Assembly: GCA_030148335.1 (NCBI GenBank)
Contig: JASBTQ010000032.1
Location: 62,001 to 126,000, forward strand
From: Allomuricauda sp.
GTDB taxonomy: Bacteria; Bacteroidota; Bacteroidia; Flavobacteriales; Flavobacteriaceae
DNA length: 64,000 bases
Direction of reading: 5' to 3'
Under the pieces are notes generated by a model. It searched no databases. It saw nothing but the letters and a program-made list of their open reading frames with translations, and was not told where the DNA came from. This document shows positions 1-32,256 of the stretch, in pieces; position 1 is the first letter of the stretch, and every line of letters begins with the position of its first letter. The translations under genes were made by a program, and so were the position numbers.

Positions 1-1
1 T

Positions 2-670
2 CCATTTTTTACTGGTGGCTCCTCGATCAGCATTTCATACCCCACTGATGCCATGACCTATGAACAACGTATGATGAGTATGAGGGGTAACAACCCACAT
101 TTCTCTATGGCAACCGTGCACCATGAATTGATTGCAGGGCATAACCTGCAAGGATTTATGAACAGCCGTCACCGTACCTACCGTAATTTCCGTACACCGT
201 TTTGGACCGAGGGATGGGCATTGTACTGGGAGCTTTTATTGTGGGACAAAGGTTTCCCACAAGGGCCGGAAGACCGAATCGGTATGTTGTTCTGGCACAT
301 GCACCGTTGCGCCCGTATCATTTTCTCCTTGAACTATCATTTGGGCAAATGGACACCACAGGAATGTATCGACTTTTTGGTAGATCGTGTTGGGCATGAG
401 CGCGCAAATGCCGAAGGTGAGGTAAGACGTTCCTTTGTGGGCAACTACCCGCCATTGTATCAGCTGGCCTACCTCACAGGAGGTCGTCAATTCTACGCTT
501 TGCACAAAGAATTGGTGGATAGCGGGAAAATGACCAACAAGGAATTCCACGATAGGATCATCACCATGAACGCCATGCCGGTCGAGATGATCAAGGCCAT
601 TATGACCGATCAGAAAATCACTAAAAATTATAAGGCCAAATGGAAGTTCTACGATCCACCAAAACAATAA
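2..670 (+). CDS. DUF885 family putative metallopeptidase, C-terminal part (5' end outside window)
   Basis: The reading frame is open from base 2, so the gene begins before the window; about 222 C-terminal residues are visible. The segment aligns closely with the C-terminal third of the next gene: it shares an HHELIAGH motif (HHELIPGH in the neighbour), WALYWELLLWD, FWHMHRCARIIFS and YLTGGRQFYAL. DUF885 proteins are predicted zinc-dependent peptidases or carboxypeptidases, so the His/Glu motif is the likely metal site. The stop is 2 bp before the ATG of the paralogue, which indicates a tandem duplication transcribed as one operon. Residue identity falls off at the extreme C-terminus. Its position beside hydroxyproline genes suggests peptide degradation, but the substrate is unknown. 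Confidence 0.85.
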   Translation, partial: PFFTGGSSISISYPTDAMTYEQRMMSMRGNNPHFSMATVHHELIAGHNLQGFMNSRHRTYRNFRTPFWTEGWALYWELLLWDKGFPQGPEDRIGMLFWHMHRCARIIFSLNYHLGKWTPQECIDFLVDRVGHERANAEGEVRRSFVGNYPPLYQLAYLTGGRQFYALHKELVDSGKMTNKEFHDRIITMNAMPVEMIKAIMTDQKITKNYKAKWKFYDPPKQ

Positions 671-672
671 GG

Positions 673-2409
673 ATGAGAAGCACTTTCATTGGAGGACTTT
701 TGGGATTGGTATGTATGACCATCGGTTCGGCCCAAGAAGCAGATTTTGTTCCTTGTCAAGAGATGCCGTTTCTCATCGAGAATTTTGAAGCGGATTCGCG
801 GGTATTGGACAATTTTTACAGCCCTTCCACAGGGTCGTTCTACGGTTTTGGAGGAAGAGGCCCATCAGCCTCATACCCAGAAAAGTTGGAACGCATGGAC
901 CGCTTGTACAAAGAATATCTCGACAAGTTGGATGCCATGGACTTTGATGGCTTGCCCCAGGAATGTCAGGTGGATTATATTCTGCTCAAAAGGGACTTGA
1001 ACGAAAACTTGCGTCAATCCCAAGTGGAACGACGCGAGTTGGATAGTGTGGCCAAATGGTTCCCTTTCAGCGACACAGTATACGATTTGTTCAAATTGAG
1101 AAGAAGAGGGATCCAGCCCGATGCACAACAAGTGGCAAAGGATTGGTCAGCAATCCTCGATGAAATTGATTCGCTAAAAACAATGCTAAAGGAATCAGAC
1201 GATTTAAGTGTATTGGTCATCAGAAAAGCAACCGATGTGGGCAATGGACTCCAACAGGCCCTAGCGGACGTTCATGGGTTCTATAATGGATATGATCCCA
1301 TGTTCACGTGGTGGACTTCCAAAACCTATGAAGATTTGGATGCTTCCCTAAAGGAATACACCGAATTGTTCAAGCAAAAACAGACCCCGGACAAAAATGG
1401 CATCGTTTCCCGGAAACCTGTGGGAAGAGAGGAGCTTATCCGCCTATTGGAATACCAAATGGTACCCTATACGCCAGAAGAGCTCACCAAAATAGCCAAC
1501 GAGGAATTTGCGTGGTGCGAGAAGGAGATGTTGAAAGCATCCCAAGAACTGGGATTCGGAAATGATTGGAAAGCAGCTTTGGAATATGTGAAGGATACCT
1601 ACGTCCCCCCGGGGAAACAACCAGAGGCCATCCTGGATCTATACGAAAGATCGGTGGCGTTCTTGAAAAAGCACGATTTGGTGACCATTCCCCCATTGGA
1701 AGAAGAAGTTTGGGGAATGTACATGATGTCGCCCGAAAGACAGCGCACCAATGCCTTTTTTACTGGTGGAAACAACATCACCATTTCCTACCCCACCAAC
1801 ACCATGGACCATGAGTTCAAGATGATGAGCATGCGCGGAAACAATCCCAATTTCTCATTTGCCACGGTTCATCATGAGTTGATTCCCGGACATAACATGC
1901 AGTACTTTATGAATGCCCGGTACCGAACCTATCGCGATTTTGGCACCCCATTTTGGATGGAAGGATGGGCGTTGTACTGGGAATTGTTGTTGTGGGATAT
2001 GGATTTCCCGACCACACCTGAAGAGCGTGTAGGAATGCTGTTCTGGCACATGCACCGTTGCGCGAGAATCATATTTTCATTCAATTTCCACATGGGCGAA
2101 TGGACCCCACAGCAATGCATCGATTTTCTGGTGGATAAAGTGGGACATGAACGGATCAATGCCGAAAGTGAGATTCGTGGACCTTTATCAAGCAACAGCA
2201 ATCCATTGTACCAAGTGGGCTATTTAACGGGAGGCCGACAATTTTATGCCCTAAAGAAAGAAATAGTGGGCAGCGGAAAAATGGGGATCAAGGAATTCCA
2301 TGACAAGGCCATCAAATTGAATGCCATGCCCATGGAAATGATAAGGGCTATCATCACGGAGCAAAAATTGACGAAGGACTTTAAGACCAATTGGAAGTTC
2401 TACGAATAG
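673..2409 (+). CDS. DUF885 family putative secreted metallopeptidase
   Basis: 578 residues from the ATG at 673, chosen because it starts a good signal peptide (MRSTFIGGLLGLVCMTIGSA, cleavage before QE) and lies 2 bp after the upstream stop. A longer frame opens at 640 inside the previous gene but would put charged residues before the signal. The DUF885 fold fills the mature protein. The HHELIPGH motif sits near residues 400-407 and is followed by the conserved FWMEGWALYWE segment, the likely catalytic and metal-binding part. Export places it in the periplasm or at the cell surface. It is the complete paralogue of the preceding truncated gene and is convergent with the AraC regulator. A peptidase role is inferred from the family; specificity cannot be read from sequence. 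Confidence 0.85.
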   Translation: MRSTFIGGLLGLVCMTIGSAQEADFVPCQEMPFLIENFEADSRVLDNFYSPSTGSFYGFGGRGPSASYPEKLERMDRLYKEYLDKLDAMDFDGLPQECQVDYILLKRDLNENLRQSQVERRELDSVAKWFPFSDTVYDLFKLRRRGIQPDAQQVAKDWSAILDEIDSLKTMLKESDDLSVLVIRKATDVGNGLQQALADVHGFYNGYDPMFTWWTSKTYEDLDASLKEYTELFKQKQTPDKNGIVSRKPVGREELIRLLEYQMVPYTPEELTKIANEEFAWCEKEMLKASQELGFGNDWKAALEYVKDTYVPPGKQPEAILDLYERSVAFLKKHDLVTIPPLEEEVWGMYMMSPERQRTNAFFTGGNNITISYPTNTMDHEFKMMSMRGNNPNFSFATVHHELIPGHNMQYFMNARYRTYRDFGTPFWMEGWALYWELLLWDMDFPTTPEERVGMLFWHMHRCARIIFSFNFHMGEWTPQQCIDFLVDKVGHERINAESEIRGPLSSNSNPLYQVGYLTGGRQFYALKKEIVGSGKMGIKEFHDKAIKLNAMPMEMIRAIITEQKLTKDFKTNWKFYE

Positions 2410-2449: not shown

Positions 2450-3328
2450 TCAAGAAGCCTTGGATTGGTTGTTGTTCCATTTTTCGAGCGAGTATTTTCT
2501 GTACTGGGTAGGAGTGGCACCTTTCAGTTCCTTGAACTTTCTGTTGAAATTGGCAATGTTCAGAAAACCACACTGTTCGGAGACCATCGCGATGGAAAGA
2601 TCATTGTGCCTGAACAGCAAGCGGCAGGCATGTTCTATCCGTATTTCTATCAAAAACTGAAAAAAGGTCTTGTTCGTCCTTTTCTTGAAATAGCGACAAA
2701 AAGCATTTTTGCTCATATTGGCCCTGTCGGCCACAGTTTCCAAGGAAAAGGATTCATGGAAATGGTTCAGGGCAAACTCGAACACATTGTTCATGCGATT
2801 GCCTTCGTCGTTGGTATAGATCTTCCGATAGACGAAGGTGGACAAGGGCTGCTTTTCGGCCGATATCATGATGTCGAGGATATGCAATAGGGTCGCAATG
2901 CGTTGTATCCGATTTTGATTCTTCAGTTGCATGAAATGTGACGAGAGCTTTTCAACGTCGGACAGTATTTTGATGCCATAGCCCGATTCTTCAAAGAATA
3001 GCTGAAGCCTTTTCATGTCAGAAAGATTGAAAAAATCCTTTCCAAAGGACTTCTTGGTGAAGAACAAGGTGTACATGACGGACTTGGAGGAGGTTTTTGG
3101 GTCGCTCCTGAACACATGGGGAACATTTTCCCCTATGACCAACACATCGCCTGCGTTGAAATCATTAACCGTATCGCCCACTATGAGTGATCCTTCCCCA
3201 GAAGCAACATAGCTGATCTGGATTTCCTCGTGTTGGTGCAGCTTGTCATAAAAAATGATGCCGATATCTTCTTGATAGACCAGTGCTTCTTGCTCAGGTT
3301 TTGGAATTTTAAAGGGAAGGACTTTCAT
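2450..3328 (-). CDS. AraC family transcriptional regulator, likely regulator of the hydroxyproline/peptidase operons
   Basis: 292 residues. The N-terminal ~100 residues form an AraC-type cupin (SYVASGEGSLIVGD, then FNAGDVLVIGENVPHVF), the usual effector pocket. The C-terminal ~100 residues carry two helix-turn-helix units (SLETVADRANMSKNAFCRYF and MVSEQCGFLNIANFNRKF) followed by the family signature GATPTQYRK. The gene is divergent from the hydroxyproline operon across a 266-bp gap. That gap holds two of the three 21-bp-phased GGTAATA repeats, and the third precedes the S9 peptidase. Direct repeats with about 21 bp phasing are the usual target of AraC-type proteins, so this protein is the natural candidate to bind them. 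The effector is unknown; hydroxyproline or a pathway intermediate is the obvious guess. Confidence 0.88.
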   Translation of the reverse strand: MKVLPFKIPKPEQEALVYQEDIGIIFYDKLHQHEEIQISYVASGEGSLIVGDTVNDFNAGDVLVIGENVPHVFRSDPKTSSKSVMYTLFFTKKSFGKDFFNLSDMKRLQLFFEESGYGIKILSDVEKLSSHFMQLKNQNRIQRIATLLHILDIMISAEKQPLSTFVYRKIYTNDEGNRMNNVFEFALNHFHESFSLETVADRANMSKNAFCRYFKKRTNKTFFQFLIEIRIEHACRLLFRHNDLSIAMVSEQCGFLNIANFNRKFKELKGATPTQYRKYSLEKWNNNQSKAS

Positions 3329-3384: not shown

Positions 3385-3412
3385 GGTAATATAGTATAAA
3401 TCTTGGGTAATA
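3385..3412 (+). promoter_or_regulatory. Putative AraC operator, copy 1 (GGTAATA direct repeat, 21-bp phasing)
   Basis: GGTAATA at 3385-3391 and again at 3406-3412, start-to-start distance 21 bp. The shared core ATATAGTAT is at 3389-3397. It differs from the copy before the S9 peptidase mainly in the 7 bases just before the second half-site. It is the upstream one of two copies in this gap. Confidence 0.65.
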
Positions 3413-3510: not shown

Positions 3511-3538
3511 GTCAATATAGTATCATAAAAGGCTAATA
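3511..3538 (+). promoter_or_regulatory. Putative AraC operator, copy 2 (degenerate half-sites, same geometry)
   Basis: GTCAATA at 3511-3517 (5 of 7 matches to GGTAATA) and GCTAATA at 3532-3538 (6 of 7), again 21 bp apart, with the same ATATAGTAT core at 3515-3523. It lies 126 bp from copy 1, close to 12 helical turns, and ends 30 bp before the candidate -7 element of the hydroxyproline operon. Confidence 0.6.
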
Positions 3539-3594
3539 AATAGGCGAATTCTTGCATAATGGTCTTTTATTTTTGCAATCAAAATACTAACATT

Positions 3595-4518
3595 ATGATA
3601 CAATGGGAAGGCGTTATGCCTGCTGTAACGACAAAATTTACAAGTGAGGACAAATTGGACCTTGCCATGTTTGAGAAAAATATAAGGGCCCAAGTAGAAG
3701 CAGGGGTCCATGGGATCATTTTGGGGGGTACCTTGGGAGAGGCGAGCACCCTTACCAAAGAAGAAAAGGAAACCCTGATAAAAGTCTCCTTGGAAATAGT
3801 CGCGGGCAAGATCCCCGTGATCATCAACATTGCCGAGCAGAGCACCAAAGAGGCCGTTGCCGTGGCGCAGCACGCAGAAAAAGTCGGCGCACAAGGACTA
3901 ATGGTCCTGCCACCTATGCGTTACAAGGCAACCGATTACGAAACTGTGGCGTACTTTAAGGCCATAGCGAACAGTACTTCCCTGCCCATCATGATCTACA
4001 ACAACCCTGTGGATTATAAAATAGAGGTAACTTTGGACATGATGGAAGAATTGTTGGAGTGCAATAACATTCAAGCCATCAAGGAATCCACAAGGGACAT
4101 CACCAATGTCATCAGGTTGAGAAACCGCTTTGGAGATCGCTTGAAGATATTCACGGGTGTGGATACCCTTGGTCTGGAAAGTTTGGTGATCGGTGCCGAT
4201 GGTTGGGTGGCCGGATTGGTCTGCGCCTATCCAGCGGAAACCGTTGCCATCTACGAATTGGTAAAGGCTGGAAAGATCAACGAGGCACTTGAAATCTACA
4301 GATGGTTCATGCCCTTGTTGGAACTGGACATCAGCCCCCAATTGGTGCAGAACATCAAATTGGCCGAAGTGGCCACAGGAATAGGCACTGAAAATGTCAG
4401 ACCCCCAAGATTGCCCTTGCAAGGAAAAGAAAGGGAGCGGGTGATCAAGGTGATTGAAACGGCCATGAAAAATAGGCCCGTGCTCCCAGAATATAAACAT
4501 CTTAAAAGTGTAGTATGA
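3595..4518 (+). CDS. Dihydrodipicolinate synthase family protein, probable 1-pyrroline-4-hydroxy-2-carboxylate deaminase
   Basis: 307 residues from the ATG at 3595 (MIQWEGVMPA); the open frame extends upstream but would run through the promoter. It is a TIM-barrel class I aldolase-like protein of the DapA/NAL superfamily. The GGTLGEAST loop is near residues 44-52, the conserved Tyr of IYNNP is Tyr135, and the Schiff-base Lys of AIKEST is Lys163. In hydroxyproline catabolism this family deaminates 1-pyrroline-4-hydroxy-2-carboxylate to 2-oxoglutarate semialdehyde. It is first in an operon that carries the other three enzymes of that route, and its stop overlaps the next start as ATGA. Family membership is certain; the substrate is inferred from neighbours. 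Confidence 0.88.
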   Translation: MIQWEGVMPAVTTKFTSEDKLDLAMFEKNIRAQVEAGVHGIILGGTLGEASTLTKEEKETLIKVSLEIVAGKIPVIINIAEQSTKEAVAVAQHAEKVGAQGLMVLPPMRYKATDYETVAYFKAIANSTSLPIMIYNNPVDYKIEVTLDMMEELLECNNIQAIKESTRDITNVIRLRNRFGDRLKIFTGVDTLGLESLVIGADGWVAGLVCAYPAETVAIYELVKAGKINEALEIYRWFMPLLELDISPQLVQNIKLAEVATGIGTENVRPPRLPLQGKERERVIKVIETAMKNRPVLPEYKHLKSVV

Positions 4519-6038
4519 TTACAGGTAAAAACTGTATAGCAGGAGATTTTATAGCAACGGGAAAGATTGTTTTCAAAACAGTCAATCCAAAATTGAACAT
4601 TGAAAACCCAACTACTTTTGTGGAGGCCACAAAAGAAGAGATCGAGGAGGCCGTTACCGCGGCATGGAACGCCTTCAAAACCTATAGAAAAATATCGGGA
4701 AAACAGCGCGCGGCTTTTTTGGATGCCATTGCCGATGAAATTTTGGCCTTGGACCAGGAATTGGTGGACATGTATGTTACCGAGTCAGGACTTCCTGAAG
4801 GGAGGGCCGTTGGCGAGAGAGGACGTACCATGGGCCAATTAAGGTCCTTTGCCGAGCTGGTTGCCAATGATGATTGGAGGGAAAACACCTTCGACGCCGC
4901 CCAACCGGAGAGAAAACCGTTGCCAAAGGATGACCTGAGAAAGACAATGATTCCCTTGGGACCCGTGGCCGTGTTTGGGGCCAGTAATTTCCCTTTGGCC
5001 TATTCCACAGCAGGTGGCGATACGGCAAGTGCCTTGGCAGCAGGTTGCCCCGTGATCGTGAAATCGCACCCCATGCATGCCGGGACATCCGAACTTGTGG
5101 CCTCTGCCATTGTAAAAGCGGCTGAAAAGACCGGAATGCCCAAGGGCGTGTTCTCCAGTATTAATGGAGGAATTCAAGCGGGGGTGGACTTGGTGAATCA
5201 TCCTAAAGTAAAAGCGGTCGGTTTTACCGGAAGCATTGGAGGTGGAAGGGCCTTGTTTGATTTGGCGGCAAAAAGAGAAGAGCCCATCCCCGTATTTGCT
5301 GAAATGGGAAGCATCAACCCGGTTATCATCACGCCCAGTGCCATATCCAAAAGAGGAAATGAAATTGCCAAGACTTATGCGGGTTCCATTACCTTGGGAA
5401 CAGGGCAATTCTGTACCAATCCCGGACTTTTATTAACGATAAAGGATGAAAACACCCAATCGTTTGTAAACAATTTGGCGAAAGAGACCATCGCTTTGGA
5501 TCCACAGTGCATGTTGCACCCCAATATCAAAAACGGATATGACAAAAAAGGTGCCGATGTAACCTCCCAAACAGGTGTGGAGGTCGTTGGAAAAGTGGAA
5601 GGAACACTGGAACCCAATTATGCGGCCTCAGTGGTGGCAACAGTATCGGGGACCGAGTTTTTGGCCAACCCCAAATTGCACCAAGAAGTTTTTGGGCCCT
5701 TTTCCATGGTGGTTCAGTGCAAGGACGAAGCCGAACTCCTTCAAATCATAGAAGGATTGGAAGGGCAATTGACAGGGACCCTTATTGCAGAGGAGGACGA
5801 TACCTTGGATTTGGCAGAAATTGTTGATGCCCTTCAGAATAGAGTGGGAAGGATCATCTATAACGGGGTCCCCACAGGAGTCGAGGTCTGTCCGTCCATG
5901 CAACACGGTGGACCCTATCCAGCATCTACGGATTCCCGTTTTACCGCAGTGGGTACACATGCCATCAAAAGATGGGTGAGGCCTGTGAGTTATCAGTCAT
6001 TTCCACAATCACTGTTGCCCGAATATCTCAAAGGATAA
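4515..6038 (+). CDS. Aldehyde dehydrogenase, probable 2-oxoglutarate semialdehyde (2,5-dioxovalerate) dehydrogenase
   Basis: 507 residues, overlapping the upstream stop by 4 bp (ATGA), so translation is probably coupled. It is an NAD(P)+-dependent aldehyde dehydrogenase: the Asn of FGASNFP is Asn157, the NAD-loop motif GFTGSIGGG is near 236-244, the general base in FAEMGSINP is Glu263 and the nucleophile in GTGQFCTNPG is Cys300. The QFCTNPG form, rather than the common GQ(X)C(X)A form, is typical of 2-oxoglutarate semialdehyde dehydrogenases. It would make 2-oxoglutarate, the last step from hydroxyproline into the TCA cycle. No signal peptide; cytoplasmic. Confidence 0.9.
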   Translation: MITGKNCIAGDFIATGKIVFKTVNPKLNIENPTTFVEATKEEIEEAVTAAWNAFKTYRKISGKQRAAFLDAIADEILALDQELVDMYVTESGLPEGRAVGERGRTMGQLRSFAELVANDDWRENTFDAAQPERKPLPKDDLRKTMIPLGPVAVFGASNFPLAYSTAGGDTASALAAGCPVIVKSHPMHAGTSELVASAIVKAAEKTGMPKGVFSSINGGIQAGVDLVNHPKVKAVGFTGSIGGGRALFDLAAKREEPIPVFAEMGSINPVIITPSAISKRGNEIAKTYAGSITLGTGQFCTNPGLLLTIKDENTQSFVNNLAKETIALDPQCMLHPNIKNGYDKKGADVTSQTGVEVVGKVEGTLEPNYAASVVATVSGTEFLANPKLHQEVFGPFSMVVQCKDEAELLQIIEGLEGQLTGTLIAEEDDTLDLAEIVDALQNRVGRIIYNGVPTGVEVCPSMQHGGPYPASTDSRFTAVGTHAIKRWVRPVSYQSFPQSLLPEYLKG

Positions 6039-6089
6039 TAGTTGCAAATTGATTGCTAAAAATTAGAATGGTTTTTTAAAGAGCTGCTA

Positions 6090-7097
6090 GTGGCAAGAAA
6101 AACATTTTTTTGTGTTGATGCACATACCTGTGGTAACCCGGTTAGGGTTGTGGCAGGGGGCGGTCCCAACCTTTTAGGGGCCAATATGAGTGAAAAAAGA
6201 CAGCATTTCCTTAAGGAATATGACTGGATAAGAAAAGGGTTGATGTTTGAGCCCAGGGGGCATGACATGATGAGCGGGAGTATTCTGTTCCCTCCCCATG
6301 AACCCGAGAATGATTTCGCCATCCTTTTTATCGAGACCTCAGGTTGTTTGCCCATGTGCGGGCACGGGACCATTGGGACCATCACGGTGGCTATTGAAGA
6401 AGGATTGATCGCTCCCAAAGTACCTGGAAAGATACGGATGGAAGCACCGGCCGGATTGGTGGAAATCGAATACCAACAGACCGGAAAAAAAGTGGATTGG
6501 GTACGCTTGGTCAATGTGAAATCCTATTTGGCCGCGGAAAATCTGAGCGTGGAGTGCCCGGAATTGGGAGAGATCACTTTTGATGTGGCCTATGGTGGAA
6601 ATTATTATGCCATTGTGGATCCGCAGAAAAACTTTAAGGGTGTGCATAATTTTTCTGCAGGCCAGATTATCCAGTATTCCCAAGTGGTACGAAATAGGAT
6701 CAATGAAAAATATCCTAATATGTTTATCCACCCCGAAAACAGCACCATCAGGGATGTCAGTCACATGCTTTGGACAGGAAATCCAATCGACCCGACTTCG
6801 TCAGGGAGGAATGCCGTTTTTTATGGGGACAAGGCTATCGACCGCTCCCCATGTGGTACAGGAACTTCCGCTCGTTTGGCCCAACTGTATGCCAAGGGAA
6901 AATTGAAAGTGGGGGAGCCATTCATCCATGAAAGTTTTATCGGCAGCAAGTTTATCGGGAAAGTAGAAAAAGAAACCACACTGGCGGACAAAAAGGCCAT
7001 TGTGCCGAGCATTCAAGGATGGGCACAGGTGACGGGCTACAACAACATCATCATAGATGATGACGACCCCTATGCACATGGGTTCCAAGTGATATAA
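6090..7097 (+). CDS. 4-hydroxyproline 2-epimerase (proline racemase family)
   Basis: 335 residues from a GTG start at 6090, which gives the usual family N-terminus (ARKTFFCVDAHTCGNPVR). Two catalytic cysteines are visible: Cys90 in MCGHGTIG and Cys255 in SPCGTGTSA. The presence of both argues for a racemase/epimerase rather than a trans-3-hydroxyproline dehydratase, in which the first is usually Thr. It would convert trans-4-hydroxy-L-proline to cis-4-hydroxy-D-proline. It lies 51 bp after the semialdehyde dehydrogenase and 11 bp before the flavin dehydrogenase that would use its product. No export signal; cytoplasmic. Confidence 0.92.
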   Translation: MARKTFFCVDAHTCGNPVRVVAGGGPNLLGANMSEKRQHFLKEYDWIRKGLMFEPRGHDMMSGSILFPPHEPENDFAILFIETSGCLPMCGHGTIGTITVAIEEGLIAPKVPGKIRMEAPAGLVEIEYQQTGKKVDWVRLVNVKSYLAAENLSVECPELGEITFDVAYGGNYYAIVDPQKNFKGVHNFSAGQIIQYSQVVRNRINEKYPNMFIHPENSTIRDVSHMLWTGNPIDPTSSGRNAVFYGDKAIDRSPCGTGTSARLAQLYAKGKLKVGEPFIHESFIGSKFIGKVEKETTLADKKAIVPSIQGWAQVTGYNNIIIDDDDPYAHGFQVI

Positions 7098-7108
7098 ATC
7101 GTTCCAAA

Positions 7109-8457: not shown

Positions 8458-8485
8458 GGTAATATAGTATCAGCATCAGGTAATA
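8458..8485 (+). promoter_or_regulatory. Putative AraC operator, copy 3, upstream of the S9 peptidase/GH146 operon
   Basis: GGTAATA at 8458-8464 and 8479-8485, both perfect, 21 bp apart, with the core ATATAGTAT at 8462-8470. The first 14 bases of the core region (GGGTAATATAGTAT) are identical to copy 1. A -7-like sequence, TAGTTTTA, begins at 8515, 30 bp after the repeat, exactly the spacing found between copy 2 and TATTTTTG. This ties the second operon to the hydroxyproline regulator. Confidence 0.65.
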
Positions 8486-8536
8486 TGAACTGATGGACAA
8501 TTGGAGATTATCTCTAGTTTTAACCTTATGTATACT

Positions 8537-10801: not shown

Positions 10802-10828
10802 TTTTAAATAGAGGGAAACGATTTTATC

Positions 10829-13879: not shown

Positions 13880-13906
13880 AACGGGCTAAAAACAAAAGAA
13901 ATAGTT

Positions 13907-19687: not shown

Positions 19688-19701
19688 TGTAAAATCGACA
19701 C
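19688..19701 (+). promoter_or_regulatory. Candidate AraR operator 1
   Basis: TGTAAAATCGACAC. With the preceding G it forms a GTGT...ACAC inverted repeat with a 7-bp centre (19687-19701). Twelve of its 14 bases recur at 19756. Assigned to AraR by position only. Confidence 0.45.
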
Positions 19702-19755
19702 ATAAAATTTAAAATAAAATTTGTTTTAACGGTGAAACTTTTGTTAATTTATAAA

Positions 19756-19769
19756 TGTAAAAACAACAC
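19756..19769 (+). promoter_or_regulatory. Candidate AraR operator 2
   Basis: TGTAAAAACAACAC, identical to the copy at 19688 except at two positions. It lies 129 bp before the GH51 start codon and 68 bp from copy 1 (start to start), in the same orientation. Confidence 0.45.
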
Positions 19770-19897
19770 TTAAATAATGTTCTCCCATCAATCATGGGGT
19801 TGACATATTTGGGTTAGTTTAAGTTTAGTAATTGTAATTCAAGGCCATGACCCGGTCATGGTCTTTTACCTTTTGTAACCATTGAAAAACTGTTTTT

Positions 19898-21430: not shown

Positions 21431-21436
21431 ACGCAA

Positions 21437-23416: not shown

Positions 23417-23427
23417 TCACTGGAGCT

Positions 23428-25449
23428 ATGAAGAGGTCTTTGAAAGTGGGTTTTTTAGGGGGACTGGTGTTGATATTGGGTCTTTCCTCATGTAAAAAGG
23501 GGAAAGGGGATACTGTTCAAAGTGCCTCTGGGGAAAAGCGAGATTTGGTGGTCGATTTGGGCGATACCGGAATCAAGATACAGCCTACCATGTACGGGAT
23601 TTTTTATGAGGATATCAATTTTGCCGCAGATGGAGGTCTGTATGCTGAATTGATCAAGAATCGCTCCTTCGAATTTCCCGACCCAAAAATGGGATGGGAA
23701 GAGCCCAACAGTGTAAAATACTCCTTGAACAAAGAATCCGGTTTTTCCAAGATCACCGATTATGTCGACCCAAAAGGTGGGAACAAAAGATTCAGTCACA
23801 CCGTTGTCCAAAATAATGCAAAGTACGAACTGTTCAATACCGGGTTTCGCGGTATCGGTATAAAAAAGGATGCATCATATCACCTTTCCATAAAGTTGGC
23901 CAATGCCACAGGGATCAAAAAGCTGAAAATTGCTTTGGTGGACACCGTTGGAACTGTTTTGGCCTCCTCTGAAATCATTCCGGATACTAAGGATTGGAAA
24001 ACGTATGAAAGGGTCCTGGTTCCCACTACAACAGAAGAAAAAGCCAAACTCAAGATTACTTTTGAGGGCAATGGAAGCATTGATATGGATATACTTTCCC
24101 TATTTCCCGAAGACACATGGAAGGGTAGAAAGAACGGACTTCGCAAGGACTTGGTGGAATTGTTGGAAGGATTGAACCCCGGATTTTTAAGATTTCCCGG
24201 AGGATGTATCGTGGAAGGGAAAACCTTGGACCGACGTTACCAATGGCAAAACACGGTCGGCCCAGTAATGGAACGGGAGCTGTTGATCAACCGATGGAAC
24301 AATGAATTTGCACACAGATCGGCACCAGATTACTACCAAACCTTTGGCCTAGGGTTCTTTGAATATTTTCAATTGGCCGAAGATTTGGGAGCACAGCCTG
24401 TTCCCATTTTGGGATGTGGAATGGCCTGCCAGTTCAATTCAGGCGAATTGGTACCATTGGAAAATCTTGGTCCGTTTGTGCAGGAAGCTTTGGATCTAAT
24501 TGAGTTTGCCAACGGCGATGTAAGCACCCCATGGGGAAAACTGCGGGCAGAAATGGGACATCCTGACGCTTTCAACATGAAATATTTGGGTATTGGTAAT
24601 GAACAATGGGGTCCGGAATATTTTGAACGATATAGGATCTTTTCCAAGATCATCGGAGAAAAACACCCCGAAATCATATTGGTATCCACACCAGGCCCTT
24701 TTCCTGATGGTGATATGTTCGAGTATGGTTGGGAGCAGATGAGGAAATTGAATGTGGCCCTGGCAGACGAACATTATTACAAGCCACCGGAATGGTTTTT
24801 GGAAAATGCCGACCGTTATGATGGTTATGACCGCAACGGACCAAAGGTATTTGCTGGCGAGTATGCCGCGCATCCCAAGGGAGTGGACGACGGGGCAATG
24901 GAAAACAATTGGGAGGCTGCACTTTCCGAGGCTGCTTTCATGACAGGTCTTGAACGCAACGCAGACTTGGTGCACATGACATCTTATGCCCCTTTGATGG
25001 CACATGCCGAAGGGTGGCAATGGGCACCCGATTTGATTTGGTTCAATAATCTTGATTCGTATGGCACGGCCAACTATCAAGTACAAAAGCTGTATTCCAA
25101 CAATGCAGGGACAGATTTGTTGAAAATAACGGAAGACCAAAAATCATTGATAGGTCAGAACGGGTTGTATGCGAGTGCCGTAAAAGATGTGGGAGTAGGT
25201 GAGCTTATTGTGAAAGTGGTGAATACGGAGTCCTATCCACAGCAGTTGACCCTTGTTGCCAATAAGGGAAATCTGGATGGTACAGGTACCATGTACACCT
25301 TGCAGAGCAGTGATTTGCAGGCGGTGAACTCATTTGAATCCCCAGAAAAGATAAGTCCAAAGGAAAGTACATTGACGGTCAATACTGGTGTGGTCGAAGT
25401 GACCGCTGAACCCTATTCGGTGAATGTTTTGAAAATCAAAATACTATAA
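23428..25449 (+). CDS. GH51 alpha-L-arabinofuranosidase, long form, lipoprotein
   Basis: 673 residues from the ATG at 23428; an earlier in-frame ATG at 23389 lies inside the GH127 gene and would spoil the lipoprotein signal (LGLSSCKKG). The N-terminal part has an extra beta-sandwich of the CBM4/9-like kind (~110-230) found in long GH51 proteins. The barrel carries the acid/base Glu392 (GIGNEQWGPEY) and nucleophile Glu478 (VFAGEYAAHP). It differs clearly from the first GH51 and probably has different linkage preference. It would clear alpha-L-Araf from arabinan, arabinogalactan or extensin side chains. 47 bp to araB. Confidence 0.9.
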   Translation: MKRSLKVGFLGGLVLILGLSSCKKGKGDTVQSASGEKRDLVVDLGDTGIKIQPTMYGIFYEDINFAADGGLYAELIKNRSFEFPDPKMGWEEPNSVKYSLNKESGFSKITDYVDPKGGNKRFSHTVVQNNAKYELFNTGFRGIGIKKDASYHLSIKLANATGIKKLKIALVDTVGTVLASSEIIPDTKDWKTYERVLVPTTTEEKAKLKITFEGNGSIDMDILSLFPEDTWKGRKNGLRKDLVELLEGLNPGFLRFPGGCIVEGKTLDRRYQWQNTVGPVMERELLINRWNNEFAHRSAPDYYQTFGLGFFEYFQLAEDLGAQPVPILGCGMACQFNSGELVPLENLGPFVQEALDLIEFANGDVSTPWGKLRAEMGHPDAFNMKYLGIGNEQWGPEYFERYRIFSKIIGEKHPEIILVSTPGPFPDGDMFEYGWEQMRKLNVALADEHYYKPPEWFLENADRYDGYDRNGPKVFAGEYAAHPKGVDDGAMENNWEAALSEAAFMTGLERNADLVHMTSYAPLMAHAEGWQWAPDLIWFNNLDSYGTANYQVQKLYSNNAGTDLLKITEDQKSLIGQNGLYASAVKDVGVGELIVKVVNTESYPQQLTLVANKGNLDGTGTMYTLQSSDLQAVNSFESPEKISPKESTLTVNTGVVEVTAEPYSVNVLKIKIL

Positions 25450-25496
25450 ATATAAAATATGGTGTGGCCATAATGGCCCAAGCACTAACCTATAGA

Positions 25497-27173
25497 ATGA
25501 AAAAGTACGTAATAGGACTCGATTATGGTTCCGACTCGGTAAGGGCTGTATTGATCGATACAAAAAATGGCGCAGAGCTGGCCTCCGAAGTATTCTGGTA
25601 TCCCCGATGGAAAGCGCAAAAATATTGCAGACCGGAAATCAATCAGTTCCGGCAACATCCTTTGGATCATATCGAAGGATTGGAACACACCATCAAGTCC
25701 GTGGTGGCACAGAGCGGAGTGGCCCCAGGGACCGTCAAGGGAATCTGTATCGATACCACAGGCTCTTCCCCAATGCCGATTGCTGAGGATGGAACAGCAT
25801 TGGCCATGCTATCTGGGTTTGAGGAAAATCCAAATGCCATGATGGTGCTTTGGAAGGACCATACCGCCGTAAAGGAGGCCAACGAGATCAACGAATTGGC
25901 CCGAACTTGGGGAGGGGAGGATTACACCAGGTACGAAGGCGGTATCTATTCTTCGGAATGGTTTTGGGCCAAGATACTTCATGTGGCCAGAGAAGATAAA
26001 CGTGTGGTTGATGCCACATATACGTGGATGGAACACTGCGATTTCATCACTTACCTTTTGGCGGATGAAAAGGATCTAAAAAAATTCAAAAGAAGTCGAT
26101 GTGCAGCTGGTCACAAGGCGATGTGGCACGAGAGCTGGGGCGGACTTCCCGACGCTAGATTTTTAGCGAAACTGGACCCTTATCTGGCATCGCTTCGCGG
26201 AAATCTATATGATGAAACCTATACTTCCGATGAGGTGGCAGGCCACTTGAATGAAGAATGGGCGGGCAAATTAGGCCTTACCACGGATACAGTTATCGCT
26301 GTCGGAACTTTTGATGCCCATGCAGGGGCCGTAGGTGCCAAAGTGGACCATCATGCCCTGGTCAGGGTCATGGGAACCTCCACTTGCGATATTATGGTGT
26401 CCTCCGCGGAAACAGTGGGCAGCAAAACGGTCAAGGGAATCTGTGGGCAGGTCGATGGGTCCGTAATCCCGGGAATGATCGGGCTTGAGGCCGGCCAATC
26501 CGCTTTTGGGGACGTGCTCGCATGGTTCAAAGATCTATTGGAATGGCCCATGGACCATCTGATTATGGGATCAACGGTACTCTCAGATCAGCAAAAGCAA
26601 GAACTTCAGGCCGAAGTGGAATCCAAATTCATACGCACCTTGGCCGAGCAGGCCGAGAATATTCCTTTGACGGAGTCTGTTCCCATTGCTTTGGATTGGG
26701 TCAATGGTAGAAGAACCCCGGATGCCAATCAAGAGTTGAAAAGTGCCATTTCTGGAATTTCGTTAGGAACCAAAGCGCCACATATTTTTAAATCTTTGGT
26801 GAATGCCATCTGCTTTGGGGCCAAAATGATCGTGGACCGTTTTCAGGAAGAAGGGGTGAAGATCGAAACCGTGATCGGCATCGGTGGTGTGGCCAGAAAA
26901 TCTCCTTTCATCATGCAGACCTTGGCCAATGTGCTGAACATGCCCATCAAAGTGGCCGAGTCCGATCAGGCCCCTGCTCTGGGAGCAGCAATATATGCGG
27001 CCGTGGCATCGGGAATCTATGATAATGTGATCGAGGCCAGTAAGATTATGGGCAGCGACTTTGAAGCGGAATATGTGCCAGAGCCTTCCCAAGTGGAGGC
27101 CTATGCCCAATTATTGGAAGAATATAAGGCCCTTGGGAGCTTTGTGGAAGAACGAACCAACAAAAACAAATAA
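25497..27173 (+). CDS. araB: Ribulokinase
   Basis: 558 residues from the ATG at 25497 (MKKYVIGLDYGSDSVRA); an earlier in-frame ATG at 25464 adds a short hydrophilic leader and is less likely. FGGY kinase family: the N-terminal phosphate-binding DYGSDSVR loop and the C-terminal GIGGVARKSPFIMQTLANVLN and ALGAAIYAAVA segments are typical of ribulokinase. It phosphorylates L-ribulose with ATP in the cytoplasm. It is followed after 4 bp by araD and then araA, so the intracellular arabinose route is contiguous. Confidence 0.94.
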   Translation: MKKYVIGLDYGSDSVRAVLIDTKNGAELASEVFWYPRWKAQKYCRPEINQFRQHPLDHIEGLEHTIKSVVAQSGVAPGTVKGICIDTTGSSPMPIAEDGTALAMLSGFEENPNAMMVLWKDHTAVKEANEINELARTWGGEDYTRYEGGIYSSEWFWAKILHVAREDKRVVDATYTWMEHCDFITYLLADEKDLKKFKRSRCAAGHKAMWHESWGGLPDARFLAKLDPYLASLRGNLYDETYTSDEVAGHLNEEWAGKLGLTTDTVIAVGTFDAHAGAVGAKVDHHALVRVMGTSTCDIMVSSAETVGSKTVKGICGQVDGSVIPGMIGLEAGQSAFGDVLAWFKDLLEWPMDHLIMGSTVLSDQQKQELQAEVESKFIRTLAEQAENIPLTESVPIALDWVNGRRTPDANQELKSAISGISLGTKAPHIFKSLVNAICFGAKMIVDRFQEEGVKIETVIGIGGVARKSPFIMQTLANVLNMPIKVAESDQAPALGAAIYAAVASGIYDNVIEASKIMGSDFEAEYVPEPSQVEAYAQLLEEYKALGSFVEERTNKNK

Positions 27174-27177
27174 GAAT

Positions 27178-27879
27178 ATGGGCTCAAAATACAAATCGCT
27201 CAAGGAAGAATGTTATGAGGCCAACATGGAGCTGAATGCCCTTGGTTTAGTCATCTATACCTTTGGGAACGTGAGTGCCGTCGATAGGGAAAATTCGGTT
27301 TTTGCCATCAAGCCCAGCGGTGTGCCTTATGAAACATTGAAACCCGAGGATATCGTCATCGTGGATTACGATAACCAAGTGGTTGAAGGGAAATTAAGAC
27401 CCTCATCGGACACCAAAACCCATAGTTATCTCTACAAAAATTGGGAAAACATCGGCGGAGTGGCGCATACCCATGCCATGTATTCCGTGTCGTGGGCGCA
27501 GGCCCAGCTGGACATTCCCATTTTCGGGACCACACATGCCGACCACCTTACCCAAGACATACCGTGTGCCCCTCCCATGGCGGACGAGCTCATCGAGGGG
27601 AACTATGAGCATAACACAGGGATTCAGATTTTGGATTGTTTCAAGGAACGGGGACTGGATTACCATGAAGTGGAAATGATATTGATAGGGAACCATGGTC
27701 CATTTGCTTGGGGCAAAAATGCCGCAAAGGCAGTGTATAACACCAAAGTGTTGGAGACAGTGGCACAAATGGCCTATCTCACCCTACAGATAAACCCCGA
27801 TGCACCGAGATTAAAAGAATCACTCATAAAAAAACACTACGAACGTAAACATGGTAAAAATGCCTATTACGGTCAATAA
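27178..27879 (+). CDS. araD: L-ribulose-5-phosphate 4-epimerase
   Basis: 233 residues from the ATG at 27178, 4 bp after the araB stop. An overlapping upstream in-frame extension reads through the araB end and is not used. Class II aldolase/epimerase family: the N-terminal GNVSAVDRE and IKPSGVPYE phosphate-binding segments, the Zn ligands in GGVAHTHAMY, and the later His in IGNHGPFAWG are visible. It makes D-xylulose 5-phosphate for the pentose phosphate pathway. The length is as expected for the family. Confidence 0.94.
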   Translation: MGSKYKSLKEECYEANMELNALGLVIYTFGNVSAVDRENSVFAIKPSGVPYETLKPEDIVIVDYDNQVVEGKLRPSSDTKTHSYLYKNWENIGGVAHTHAMYSVSWAQAQLDIPIFGTTHADHLTQDIPCAPPMADELIEGNYEHNTGIQILDCFKERGLDYHEVEMILIGNHGPFAWGKNAAKAVYNTKVLETVAQMAYLTLQINPDAPRLKESLIKKHYERKHGKNAYYGQ

Positions 27880-27896
27880 TATAATTTTACATCTAA

Positions 27897-29402
27897 ATGA
27901 AAATAGCTTCTAAAGAAATCTGGTTCGTTACCGGAAGTCAACATTTATATGGCCCAGAAACCTTGAAACAGGTGGCCTCCAATTCCAAAAGCATTGTGGA
28001 CGGACTGAACGGATCGGGCCAATTGCCCATCAACTTGGTCTTTAAACCCATAGTGACCACTCCCGATGAAATCCTAAAACTCTGTCGCGAAGCCAGTAAC
28101 GACCCTTCCTGTATTGGTCTGGTGGCTTGGATGCATACCTTTTCGCCCGCCAAAATGTGGATTGCCGGACTTACTGTGCTTAGCAAACCTTTGTGCCATC
28201 TGCACACACAGTTCAATGCAGAGATTCCTTGGGAGAACATCGATATGGACTTTATGAACCTGAACCAATCGGCACACGGTGACCGCGAGTTCGGTTTTAT
28301 GATGTCCCGCATGCGCAAGAACCGAAAAGTGATCGTGGGCCATTGGAAAAGTGAAAGAGTACAACAAAAGTTGGGCGTTTTTGCCCGTGTGGCGTTGGGC
28401 GCCGATGAACTGCGACACCTGAAAGTGGCCCGTTTTGGCGACAATATGAGGGAAGTGGCCGTTACCGAAGGCGATAAAGTGGCCGCACAGATGCGCTTTG
28501 GTGTGGCGGTCAATGGATACGATTCTTCGGATATCACCAGCCGTATCGATGCGCTGGATCAAAAATCAGTGGATCGGCTCCTTGAAGAATATGAAGCCAC
28601 ATATACCTTGTCCGCTGCCCTGCAAAAAAATGGAGCGAAACGTCAATCCTTGGTGGAAGCGGCCAAGATTGAACTTGGGCTTCGCACCTTTTTGGACGAA
28701 GGCGGATTCAAGGCATTTACGGATACCTTTGAAAACTTGGGTGTCCTCAGACAATTGCCAGGGATTGCTGTGCAAAGGCTCATGGCCGATGGTTATGGAT
28801 TTGGGGGCGAGGGCGACTGGAAAACAGCCGCGATGCTCAGAAGCATGAAGGTGATGGCCGAAGGACTGAAAGGTGGAACCTCTTTTATGGAGGACTATAC
28901 CTACCATTTTACCCCACAAAAGGAATACGTGTTGGGATCCCATATGTTGGAAATCTGTCCGTCCATAGCCAGTGGAAAAGCTTCTTGCGAAGTCCATCCT
29001 TTGGGCATCGGGGGCAAGGAAGATCCTGTGCGATTGGTCTTCAATTCCCCGGCAGGAAATGCGATCAACGCTTCCTTGGTGGATATGGGGAACCGCTTCC
29101 GATTGATCGTGAACGAAGTGGAAGCCGTGGAACCCATGGCCCATCTGCCCAAACTGCCCGTGGCACGGGTGCTTTGGGACCCCAAACCCAATCTGGACAT
29201 AGCCGCAACCGCATGGATCTATGCGGGTGGGGCGCACCACACCGTATATTCCCAAGCACTGGACACTGAATATATGGAAGATTTTGCCGATATTTTCGGA
29301 ATTGAACTCTTGGTCATCGATGCCGATACCAGAATCAGGAATTTCAAAGATCAGTTGCATGCCAATGAAGCCTACTATCATTTGTTTCAGCATGGGATGT
29401 AA
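27897..29402 (+). CDS. araA: L-arabinose isomerase
   Basis: 501 residues, normal for AraA. Family hallmarks are present throughout: [16 protein letters not shown] at the N-terminus, [26 protein letters not shown], and the C-terminal [15 protein letters not shown]. The catalytic region around [15 protein letters not shown] and [10 protein letters not shown] is intact. It converts L-arabinose to L-ribulose in the cytoplasm, using a divalent metal. 17 bp after araD; 42 bp to the aldose 1-epimerase. Confidence 0.96.
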
Positions 29403-29444
29403 TCGACACAAATAAAAAAATAACTAACAAACAAACAGATCATC

Positions 29445-30629
29445 ATGAGGACAGCACAACCTTACCTTATTTCTTTTGTTTTTCTGCTGACACTTTTAAA
29501 TTTGGGATGTAAGGAAAACAAAAAGGAAAATCAATCAAGTATGGAAACCACAGACGCCCAACAGGGAAAAGAATATTTTGAAAAGACCAGTTTTGGGAAA
29601 ATGCCGGATGGGCAGACAGTGGAAAAGTACACATTAAGGAATGCTTCGGGCATGGAAATCGATGTGATCACCTATGGTGGTATCATCACCCGCTGGACAG
29701 CCCCGGACAAAAATGGCTCGTATGAAGACATTGTCCTAGGGTTTGATGATTTGCAACAATATCTTGACGGCAATCCCTATTTCGGAGCTTTGATAGGCCG
29801 TTACGGCAACCGTATCGCCAAGGGAAAGTTCAGTTTGGATGGTGAGACCTATACCCTTGCCACCAACGATGGCGAAAACCATTTGCATGGGGGTGAAAAG
29901 GGTTTTGACAAGGTACTTTGGCAAGCCAAAGCGGAAAGTACCGACGATGGGGCTTCCTTGGAACTCACCTACACCAGTGCCGATGGGGAGGAAGGATATC
30001 CGGGCAAACTGGACGTGAAGGTTACCTATATTCTGACTGGGAACAACGAGCTCGATGTGCGCTACGAGGCCACAACGGACAAACCTACCATTGTGAACTT
30101 GACCCAGCACAGCTATTTTAATCTTTCGGGAGATTTTACCCAAAGCATACTCGATCACGAACTTTTCTTGGATGCAGATGCATACCTACCAGTGGATGGC
30201 GGGCTAATCCCGACCGGGGAGTTGCGTAAGGTCGCTGGGACTCCGTTCGATTTCAAACAACCCAAATTGATGGGCAAGGAGATCAATGCGGAGAATGAAC
30301 AGTTGAAGCTGGGAAAAGGCTACGATCACTGTTGGGTACTCAATCAGGAAGGAGGTAATTATGGCCTGGCGGCATCTGCATATCACTCAAAAACAGGACG
30401 TTTGCTGGAAGTATATACAGATGAACCCGGAATCCAGTTTTATAGTGGCAACTTCTTGGACGGCACCCTGCCCGCCCAAAAAGGAGGCACCTATGGACAA
30501 AGATCAGGATTTTGTCTGGAGACCCAACACTATCCTGATACCCCTAATCAAGAAGGATTTCCTTCCGTTAGGTTGAATCCGGGGGAGACCTATTCGTCCA
30601 GGACCACGTTCAAACTATCTACAAAATAA
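29445..30629 (+). CDS. galM: Aldose 1-epimerase (mutarotase), lipoprotein
   Basis: 394 residues. The signal peptide ends in LLNLGCKEN, a lipobox, so unlike most mutarotases it should act outside the cytoplasm. The GalM fold starts near residue 50. The pattern GRYGNRIAKGKF, NDGENHLHGGEKGFDKVLW (with the catalytic-type His), NLTQHSYFNLSG and the late YSGNFLDG segment are family hallmarks. It probably equilibrates anomers of sugar released by the retaining glycosidases upstream before uptake. It sits 7 bp before the symporter gene. Confidence 0.9.
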   Translation: MRTAQPYLISFVFLLTLLNLGCKENKKENQSSMETTDAQQGKEYFEKTSFGKMPDGQTVEKYTLRNASGMEIDVITYGGIITRWTAPDKNGSYEDIVLGFDDLQQYLDGNPYFGALIGRYGNRIAKGKFSLDGETYTLATNDGENHLHGGEKGFDKVLWQAKAESTDDGASLELTYTSADGEEGYPGKLDVKVTYILTGNNELDVRYEATTDKPTIVNLTQHSYFNLSGDFTQSILDHELFLDADAYLPVDGGLIPTGELRKVAGTPFDFKQPKLMGKEINAENEQLKLGKGYDHCWVLNQEGGNYGLAASAYHSKTGRLLEVYTDEPGIQFYSGNFLDGTLPAQKGGTYGQRSGFCLETQHYPDTPNQEGFPSVRLNPGETYSSRTTFKLSTK

Positions 30630-30636
30630 GCAGGAC

Positions 30637-32256
30637 ATGAGGACATTGGATACTTTTGATTGGATTACCATATCCGCTTACTTCGTCGTGCTTTTAGGAA
30701 TCGCCGTTTGGGTGATACGCAAGAAAAAAGAAAGCACGGAAGATTATTTCCTTGCAGGTAGAAATGTGGGATGGTTTGTGGTGGGAGCCTCCATTTTTGC
30801 CTCCAATATTGGCTCGGAACACGTGGTGGGACTAGCAGGTGCAGGAGCAGGGAACCGTTTGCCCATGTTGATCTATGAGATACAGGCATGGGTGGTGCTG
30901 ATTCTGGGATGGGTGTTTTTGCCCTTCTATGCGCGAGCGGGAGTCTTCACCATGCCGGAATTTTTGGAAAAGCGTTTTGATGCCCGTGCCCGATGGATCC
31001 TATCCGTATTCTCCATTGTGGCCTATGTGCTCACCAAAATATCGGTGACCATCTATGCGGGTGGGATTGTGGTCTCTGCCTTGTTGGGCATTGATTTTTG
31101 GACCGGGGCCATTGCCACGGTGGTATTGACAGGGGTTTACACCGTTCTGGGCGGAATGCGGGCAGTAGTTTATACGGAAACGCTTCAGGCCATTATATTG
31201 GTCATCGGTGCAGCTGCCCTTACCCTCATCGGTCTGGACCATGTGGGAGGATGGCAGAGCATGAAAGAGACCGTGACCCCAGAATACCTGAACATGTGGC
31301 GTTCCGCTTCCGACCCTGATTTTCCATGGCCCTCTCTTTTGATTGCGAGTACGATCACGGGAATTTGGTATTGGTGTACGGACCAATACATCGTGCAACG
31401 TGCATTGACGGCAAAGAATATCAAAGAGGGCAGAAGAGGGACCATTTTTGGTGCCTTGTTAAAACTTTTCCCAGTTTTCTTGTTCTTGATCCCGGGCGTG
31501 ATAGCGCTGACCTTGAAAATGCGTGGTGAACTGCATTGGGACAGCCCGGATGAAGCTTTCCCCGTTTTGATGAGCAACCTCTTGCCATCCGGACTGCGTG
31601 GTCTGGTCGCGGCAGGCCTGTTGGCGGCATTGATGAGTTCATTGGCCTCCGTGTTCAATTCATGTTCCACCCTGTTCACGGTCGATATCTATAAAAAACT
31701 GAGGCCAAATACCCCTGAGAAGAAACTGGTCAGGACGGGACAGATCGCTACAGTGGTGGTGGTCATCATCGGTATCATCTGGATCCCCATCATGGCCAAC
31801 ATATCGGGAGTGCTGTATGAATACCTCCAAAGTGTGCAATCCTATATAGCCCCACCGATCACCGCGGTGTTCCTTTTGGGGATATTCCATAAACGTATCA
31901 ATGCCCAAGGCGCATTCGTCACTCTTGTAACCGGATTTATCGTGGGAGCGCTCCGGATCATTTTGGAATTGGTAAAAGAATCTTTGGACCCCGGAAGCTT
32001 TTGGTTCCTTTTGGGCGATATGAACTTTTTGTCCTTTGCGTCTTGGTTCTTCCTATTCTGTATTATTTTGATTGTGGTGGTGAGCTATGCCACGGCAGCA
32101 CCATCGGAAGAAAAATTGAGGAACCTTACCTATGCCACTATTTCTGAAGAGGAAAAAAGTAGGAACAAAAGTAGTTACAACTGGAAAGATATTGTCATTT
32201 CCTTGGTGATAGTGGCCATTGTCATCTATGTGATGGTGTGGTTCAATGGGAAATAG
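30637..32256 (+). CDS. SSS family sodium/solute symporter, probable L-arabinose transporter
   Basis: 539 residues with about 14 predicted membrane segments. Sodium:solute symporter family marks: EDYFLAGRNVGWFVVGASIFASNIGSEH near the N-terminus, the GGMRAVVYTETLQ loop, and AALMSSLASVFNSCSTLFTVDIYK. It resembles the sugar-transporting SGLT branch. It ends the arabinose operon, so L-arabinose is the likely substrate, by position. No SusC/SusD-like outer-membrane pair is present in the window, so outer-membrane entry must be encoded elsewhere or occur through general porins. Confidence 0.9.
   Translation: MRTLDTFDWITISAYFVVLLGIAVWVIRKKKESTEDYFLAGRNVGWFVVGASIFASNIGSEHVVGLAGAGAGNRLPMLIYEIQAWVVLILGWVFLPFYARAGVFTMPEFLEKRFDARARWILSVFSIVAYVLTKISVTIYAGGIVVSALLGIDFWTGAIATVVLTGVYTVLGGMRAVVYTETLQAIILVIGAAALTLIGLDHVGGWQSMKETVTPEYLNMWRSASDPDFPWPSLLIASTITGIWYWCTDQYIVQRALTAKNIKEGRRGTIFGALLKLFPVFLFLIPGVIALTLKMRGELHWDSPDEAFPVLMSNLLPSGLRGLVAAGLLAALMSSLASVFNSCSTLFTVDIYKKLRPNTPEKKLVRTGQIATVVVVIIGIIWIPIMANISGVLYEYLQSVQSYIAPPITAVFLLGIFHKRINAQGAFVTLVTGFIVGALRIILELVKESLDPGSFWFLLGDMNFLSFASWFFLFCIILIVVVSYATAAPSEEKLRNLTYATISEEEKSRNKSSYNWKDIVISLVIVAIVIYVMVWFNGK

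Follow-up and report, generated by a model that had tools for sequence, protein, structure and literature searches.

Genes for the catabolism of hydroxyproline (Hyp), peptidase genes and a gene for a beta-arabinofuranosidase-type enzyme apparently form one conserved, co-regulated unit in the genome of Allomuricauda sp. (assembly GCA_030148335.1, 3.44 Mb, 83.6% complete). The unit lies partly within the 64,000-nucleotide stretch analyzed here, referred to as the window (contig JASBTQ010000032.1, positions 62,001–126,000, forward strand). We consider it probable that this is a glycoprotein-utilization locus run by a regulator of the Hyp type, and that the arabinose (ara) operon that adjoins it is separate. 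The reading is drawn from gene families, conserved linkage, a shared operator-like repeat and the kinship of the regulator, all of which are present in the sequences; from these we infer enzyme activities, the inducer, binding, glycopeptide import and the sign of regulation.

The 20 proteins encoded between positions 53 and 32256 of the window were scanned against Pfam and NCBIfam. A preliminary description of this stretch had named DUF885, S9, a Hyp set, GH146, GH127, two GH51, GH43, araBDA, a mutarotase and a symporter, and all of these families were recovered. The peptidase, Hyp and glycosidase content was thus confirmed, but the description had made no mention of a DUF5695 gene, of two SusC/SusD pairs that lie just ahead of the window or of a minus-strand gene for a Nudix/NrtR-type regulator (18784–19620), which splits the stretch. 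The window gave no tRNA, and no Rfam match reached the gathering score.

The Hyp operon (3559–8353, plus strand) consists of a DHDPS-family first gene (3559–4518), an aldehyde dehydrogenase that is probably a 2-oxoglutarate semialdehyde dehydrogenase (4515–6038), a 4-hydroxyproline epimerase (6090–7097) and an FAD amino-acid oxidoreductase, probably a D-hydroxyproline dehydrogenase (7109–8353). The epimerase reaches 597.7 bits with NF010578 (curated cut-off 376), is the sole Pro_racemase match in the 83.6% complete assembly and has two candidate active-site cysteines, 90 and 255; we take this pair, like the HELIPGH of the DUF885 protein described below, to be an active-site motif. The other three genes fit the Hyp pathway in family and order; none of them attained an equivalog cut-off with the models listed (25 for the aldehyde dehydrogenase). 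Of the complete route to 2-oxoglutarate proposed in the preliminary description, the epimerase step therefore stands above its cut-off, and the assignment of the remaining three is based on family and position.

Linkage of the epimerase to the GH146-like gene was evaluated in 149 genomes of the family sampled at one per genus (G labels). A full-length GH146-like protein (>1400 bits) is encoded in ten of them, and in seven of these, our own included (G000, G143, G127, G061, G100, G094 and G117), the epimerase gene is no more than 10 kb away on the same strand. With our own genome left aside, the linkage is found in six of nine other genera, which is what came of the gene-order comparison in other Flavobacteriaceae suggested earlier. 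In G075, G144 and G030 the epimerase is on a different contig from the GH146-like gene. A second collection comprised 51 GH146-like loci (L labels): the window, 41 named genome contigs and nine regions, with identity cut-offs of >58% for the GH146-like protein and >55% for the epimerase. Here 35 loci are linked (the window, 28 of the 41 named loci and six of the nine regions), all on the same strand, with the epimerase 45–9218 bp upstream of the GH146-like gene. Because the named loci are mostly from Flagellimonas, Allomuricauda and Muricauda, the one-per-genus sample gives the fairer number. Neither an S9 nor an oxidoreductase gene intervenes in ten of the 35, and in L057, L058, L071 and L088 the GH146-like gene follows only 45–57 bp after the epimerase. 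Among the linked loci, compared over stretches of varying length, DUF885 was found in 31, an AraC-type gene in 29, DUF5695 in 27, S9 in 25, an AraR-type gene in 24 and GH43 in 16.

The neighborhood of the block differs among genera. In G143, G100 and G117 a SusC/SusD pair sits inside the operon, between the oxidoreductase and S9 genes (SusC 68, 43 and 44% identical, respectively, to SusC1 of our genome); an M1 peptidase is nearby in all three, M24 and DPP4 peptidases in G100 and G117, a GH2 in G143 and a GH97 in G117. An aminopeptidase P-like M24 is found in G094, an amino-acid permease, a GH36 and a creatinase/prolidase-type M24 in G127, and a creatinase/prolidase-type M24 with an ornithine-cyclodeaminase family protein in G061. 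In Sinomicrobium (L067, L075), peptidases of three kinds (M1, aminopeptidase P-like M24 and DPP4) come after the block, and 23 kb of sequence gave no match to AraR. The proline-type peptidases and the amino-acid permease of these genera would fit a proline/hydroxyproline-rich peptide. DUF6055 proteins are also encoded near the block in two genera (L153:4354–6579 in G127; L151:1638–3068 in G061), and in G127 a one-mismatch copy of the repeat described next (L153:6651) precedes the DUF6055 gene.

The operator-like repeat, AATATAGTAT-N10-TAATA, is a direct repeat with TAATA-like halves about 21 bp apart in the gaps between the AraC-type gene and its neighbor. Exact copies on the plus strand of the window lie in the AraC/Hyp-operon gap (3388–3412), before the Hyp operon (3514–3538) and before the S9/GH146-like operon (8461–8485). 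In L093, the 20 kb preceding the window, there are copies 154 bp before a DUF885 gene (L093:18717–18741) and 137 bp before SusC1 (L093:6645). Across the 3.44-Mb assembly five sites have zero or one mismatch and every one is in this locus; the window holds three, against 0.08 expected. The AraC/next-gene gaps contain an exact copy in 23 of 31 cases, one mismatch in seven and two in one, and none of 620 mononucleotide shuffles came below two mismatches, but these gap counts are circular because those very gaps were the source of the pattern, which was picked out by eye.

The genes of all loci were also scanned, at up to one mismatch and up to 250 bp upstream, after exclusion of genes with an alignment start beyond residue 12, <40% identity or <200 bp of upstream sequence. 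An upstream copy of the repeat was present for the first Hyp gene in 25/26 cases, for S9 in 19/21, for the GH146-like gene in 3/40 (L063, L079 and L087) and for SusC1 in 1/4. No other gene has one, including GH51a (0/18), GH127 (0/16) and araB (0/6), and the reversed-pattern control gave zero throughout. Since one of the gaps from which the pattern was drawn, that of L102, is an AraC/S9 gap, the independent count for S9 is 18 of 20. At L079 (Flavobacterium sp. MC2016-06, 9750–15802) the repeat (up to one mismatch) stands before a GH146-like gene that is followed by GH42 and GH43 and has no Hyp gene within 10 kb.

By its sequence relatives, the regulator of the locus, an AraC-type protein with a cupin domain (2450–3328, minus strand; domain scan), is of the Hyp type: it is kin to regulators encoded beside Hyp operons that lack these glycosidases. 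For comparison we used 19 Hyp loci unlinked to a GH146-like gene, namely 16 top epimerase matches in genomes without the full-length GH146-like protein, down to G029 (G066, with its epimerase near a contig end, was excluded), and three further loci. An AraC-type gene (44–62% identity) is present in 16 of the 19 and a repeat site with up to one mismatch in three (L167, L168 and L173). In a tree of 38 rows (20 hand-picked linked loci, two loci with glycosidases only, 15 with Hyp genes only and one outgroup; L173 gave no whole AraC frame), the regulators of the linked loci form a group that also takes in L167, L168 and both glycosidase-only rows and is separate from the remaining Hyp-only rows (87/100, branch not starred). 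The root is unsure, as there is a single long-branched outgroup row whose join with L159 is flagged. In L100 (G075) and L102 (G030), where the Hyp genes are on other contigs, a regulator of the same type is nevertheless present with an exact repeat before the GH146-like or S9 gene, and SusC1/SusD1 lie upstream of the regulator with a repeat site of zero or one mismatch. The Hyp operons of G075 and G030 have no AraC match in 19 kb, and a two-mismatch repeat was seen in one of them and none in the other. That the glycosidases keep company with a Hyp-family regulator even where no Hyp genes adjoin speaks against a locus for arabinan or rhamnogalacturonan II (RG-II).

These results bear on the possibility that a general Hyp operon, serving collagen or other Hyp proteins, came by chance to be the neighbor of a locus for arabinan or RG-II side chains. 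The epimerase is indeed frequent: counting paralogues, 86 of the 149 family genomes have it, mostly without a GH146-like gene. Hyp catabolism has been described in a collagen cluster of Colwellia (PMC7883544, in the text available), and in Maribacter (L070) the GH146-like gene has AraR and ara genes for neighbors and the 16 kb of sequence contain no Hyp gene. A chance neighborhood of Hyp and glycosidase genes was rejected on the linkage in the one-per-genus sample (seven of ten genera) and in 35 of 51 loci and on the confinement of the repeat, at zero or one mismatch, to the locus. The operator is common to the Hyp and S9/GH146-like units, the Hyp-type regulator stays by the GH146-like gene where the Hyp genes lie elsewhere, and no M9 collagenase was matched among 26 proteins in or just before the Hyp half (the 20 of the window and six preceding it). 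We therefore regard this explanation as very improbable.

Several observations weigh against a Hyp-regulated glycoprotein locus. The epimerase is absent from the sequence at 16 of the 51 GH146-like loci, including those of Robertkochia, Sphingobacterium, Pedobacter and Flavobacterium, although several loci without it sit on contigs that end within 10 kb. When two mismatches are allowed, the repeat is not in excess of its reversed control (11 versus 13 in our genome, with similar results in nine others). The known structures nearest to the SusD proteins do not separate glycan importers from peptide importers. Finally, distant DUF885 genes (22–26% identity) are found in ordinary Hyp operons, for example in L160, L161, L163, L164, L166, L168 and L169, some of which also contain an S9 gene (33–37%), so the peptidases may belong to Hyp use generally.

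Under the glycoprotein-utilization reading, the SusC/SusD pairs would import glycopeptides or sugars from a hydroxyproline-rich glycoprotein. The secreted GH146-like, GH43 and DUF5695 proteins would strip L-arabinose and other caps off hydroxyproline, and the S9 and DUF885 peptidases would cleave the proline/hydroxyproline-rich chain. Freed trans-4-hydroxy-L-proline would be epimerized, oxidized, deaminated and oxidized again to 2-oxoglutarate. The AraC-type protein may bind AATATAGTAT-N10-TAATA ahead of the units and switch all of them on jointly, while the arabinose could be used through the neighboring ara operon, which is apparently under separate regulation.

The borders of the unit differ from those first proposed. 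It begins about 13 kb upstream of the window with two SusC/SusD pairs followed by a third DUF885 gene (all in L093), and its right end is the GH43 gene (18763). Its two adjacent SusC/SusD pairs are a feature of polysaccharide utilization loci. Both DUF885 genes noted earlier are present, but the tandem numbers three: one in L093, one that crosses the window start (3' part at 53–670, plus strand; gene start 1106 bp before the window at L093:18895; 591 amino acids, no internal stop) and one at 640–2409 (plus strand), assigned by domain scan, motif and predicted fold. The DUF885 motif is HELI(A/P)GH, in the form HELIPGH at 640–2409, with H412, E413, H418 and E441 unchanged throughout an alignment of 12 sequences. 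The predicted structure (pLDDT 79.8) has DUF885 structures as its top matches and resembles ACE and M32 carboxypeptidase weakly (TM-scores of about 0.3–0.4), which would fit a metallopeptidase. The predicted secreted S9 peptidase is encoded at 8501–10801 (plus strand; open reading frame, with the ATG at 8537 the likely start) and contains GTSAGG and GHSPGG; the YEEEF motif of the Sinomicrobium DPP4 was not seen in it.

Beyond the GH43 gene lies the arabinose half (18784–32256), which seems, from its gene content and signals, to be a neighbor able to use arabinose and regulated apart. Its Nudix/NrtR-AraR-type regulator (domain scan), the minus-strand gene introduced above, falls outside the Hyp regulon. 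A palindrome, GTGT-N7-ACAC, follows in the AraR/GH51 gap (19687–19701, no strand assigned) and is the sole exact copy in 53 kb; then come GH51, GH127, GH51, araB, araD, araA, an aldose epimerase and an SSS symporter (19898–32256, plus strand; domain scan).

The earlier proposal was a single unit for extensin-type glycoproteins (Hyp-O-Ara3/4) that included the ara operon and GH127, with both halves co-induced. The halves are contiguous in the window and also adjoin in Flagellimonas/Allomuricauda relatives, and an AraR-type gene is present in 24 of the 35 linked loci. Extensins carry Ser-linked Gal, which the alpha-galactosidase-type GH36 of G127 would fit. GH146 enzymes acting on Araf-beta-Hyp are known (PMC10850190, according to the portions available). 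Membership of the ara operon in the same regulon was nonetheless rejected on its own regulator and palindrome, on the lack of the Hyp operator before GH51a, GH127 and araB (0/40) and on six other genera in which the 45–57 kb surrounding the block gave no AraR or araBDA match; moreover, the GH127 is not HypBA1-like. We consider an all-inclusive extensin unit unlikely. What survives of the single locus is the joining of Hyp genes, peptidases and the GH146-like gene by linkage, repeat and regulator; the arabinose half stands apart.

In Maribacter sp. ACAM166 (L070, 1843–16136), AraR, araBDA and a further gene of the GH146 type adjoin a GH146-like gene and a DUF5695 gene. An AraR-type palindrome precedes the GH146-like gene. 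Here it is a regulator of the sugar type that goes with these enzymes, an arrangement that would fit an arabinose-releasing enzyme.

The LamG-Big_4-GH146-like protein (10829–13879, plus strand; domain scan and structure matches) is predicted to be a secreted beta-L-arabinofuranosidase-type enzyme. Its catalytic domain (GH127_cat) is nearest to the GH146 structures (5opj 224.7 and 8k7y 138.2 bits) and not to those of GH127 (6ex6 72.9 and 3wkw 32.7 bits). For the GH127 protein at 21437–23416, identity as HypBA1 was rejected on the higher score of 6ex6 (684 versus 333 bits). Aceric acid hydrolase (NF049879) was also rejected, with 471.1 bits against a curated cut-off of 950; the GH146-like protein gave 89.3 bits. 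In alignments, both proteins retain the Glu, ETC and CC motifs, which in GH146 belong to the Zn/Cys active site, a role drawn in part from the available text of PMC10850190. None of the 20 window proteins is named GH121 by Pfam or NCBIfam, libraries in which the presence of a GH121 model was not checked.

Two further plus-strand genes belong to the unit: a GH43 with F5/8-type C and LamG domains (16616–18763; domain scan) and a secreted DUF5695 protein with a PL27-like fold (13907–16612; domain scan and predicted structure). The DUF5695 model strongly matches PL27 in its overall beta-sandwich and (alpha/alpha)6 fold, with 15% identity in the structural alignment; the comparison covers the best rows only, and other (alpha/alpha)6 families may match too. 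The PL27 enzyme, BACCELL_00875, is an L-Rha-alpha-1,4-D-GlcA lyase that acts on gum arabic (PMC8377490, in the sections available). The predicted fold points to arabinogalactan-protein (AGP) chemistry as much as to extensin.

The substrate could accordingly be an AGP or an algal Hyp-glycoprotein with uronic-acid or rhamnose caps, with the same locus logic and another glycan, a view that we hold possible but somewhat doubtful. A DUF5695 sequence profile gave no match to BACCELL_00875 up to E 10, and against solved structures DUF5695 had no meaningful match by sequence, either singly (best E 0.33) or as a profile; fold alone shows no function. At the family level, a galactan-backbone enzyme was recognized in none of the scanned window proteins. 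Extensin was not borne out as the particular substrate, given a GH127 that is not HypBA1-like, no protein recognized as GH121 and the fold of DUF5695; extensin-type Hyp-arabinosides are one among several possible substrates (extensin-, AGP- or algal-type).

Parts of this system resemble known ones, which we compare as far as the available portions of the cited papers describe them. Bifidobacterium longum and Xanthomonas euvesicatoria break down Hyp-arabinosides via GH43, GH121 and GH127/146 enzymes (PMC7263609, PMC6085000). The B. longum HypAA/HypBA2/HypBA1 system likewise directs GH43 and GH127/GH146-type enzymes at the arabinose of Hyp-rich glycoproteins and has a dedicated importer (PMC7263609, PMC5928203, PMC10850190). 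It uses GH121, an ABC importer and BauR, a LacI-type regulator to which bifidobacterial beta-arabino-oligosaccharide genes have been assigned in a proposal (PMC5928203), with no Hyp catabolism or peptidases described, whereas the present locus has SusC/SusD, peptidases, Hyp catabolism and a Hyp-type AraC protein. In X. euvesicatoria the Hyp-arabinoside arabinosidases (XeHypBA1/BA2/AA) adjoin a predicted prolyl oligopeptidase gene; unlike here, that gene is reported to be a pseudogene and no Hyp catabolism is described (PMC6085000). The Colwellia cluster similarly gathers peptidases, transport and Hyp catabolism for a single protein substrate, but it has an M9 collagenase and no arabinosidases, no glycan part is described, and it is from another phylum (PMC7883544). 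Extensin use has been proposed for Latescibacteria on the basis of GH127 (PMC4454575), and GH127/GH51 of sponge symbionts have been linked to algal extensin (PMC8163846). With Bacteroidota polysaccharide utilization loci in general the unit shares SusC/SusD pairs, secreted carbohydrate enzymes and a local regulator; it differs in that amino-acid (Hyp) catabolism lies inside the unit and shares its regulator type and operator. Both abilities are thus known in bacteria separately. A locus joining Hyp catabolism with arabinosidases was not found described in the portions of the open-license literature available, in keeping with the preliminary description, although this is not proof of absence.

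Bacteroidota sugar loci are usually interpreted through their glycan; in this one, the glycan-bearing amino acid appears to serve both as the signal and as part of the nutrient supply. It is quite possible, if not yet probable, that a Hyp-sensing AraC regulator captured genes for uptake, deglycosylation and proteolysis, with the amino acid beneath the sugar as the signal, that DUF5695 is a new carbohydrate-active family, and that the repeat together with the gene set marks Hyp-glycoprotein turnover by marine Bacteroidota. DUF5695 is a candidate for a new enzyme family which, if the reading holds, would be active on a Hyp-linked glycan. The locus offers testable genes for studying what becomes of Hyp glycoproteins of the extensin, AGP or algal type in seawater environments, and the repeat offers a means of finding the regulon in genomes.

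Directly after the arabinose half, the minus strand of the window encodes an RND efflux set (OEP, AcrB-type and HlyD-type; 32504–38014), and farther on a protein with an FGE-sulfatase-type domain (43619–44737, minus strand).

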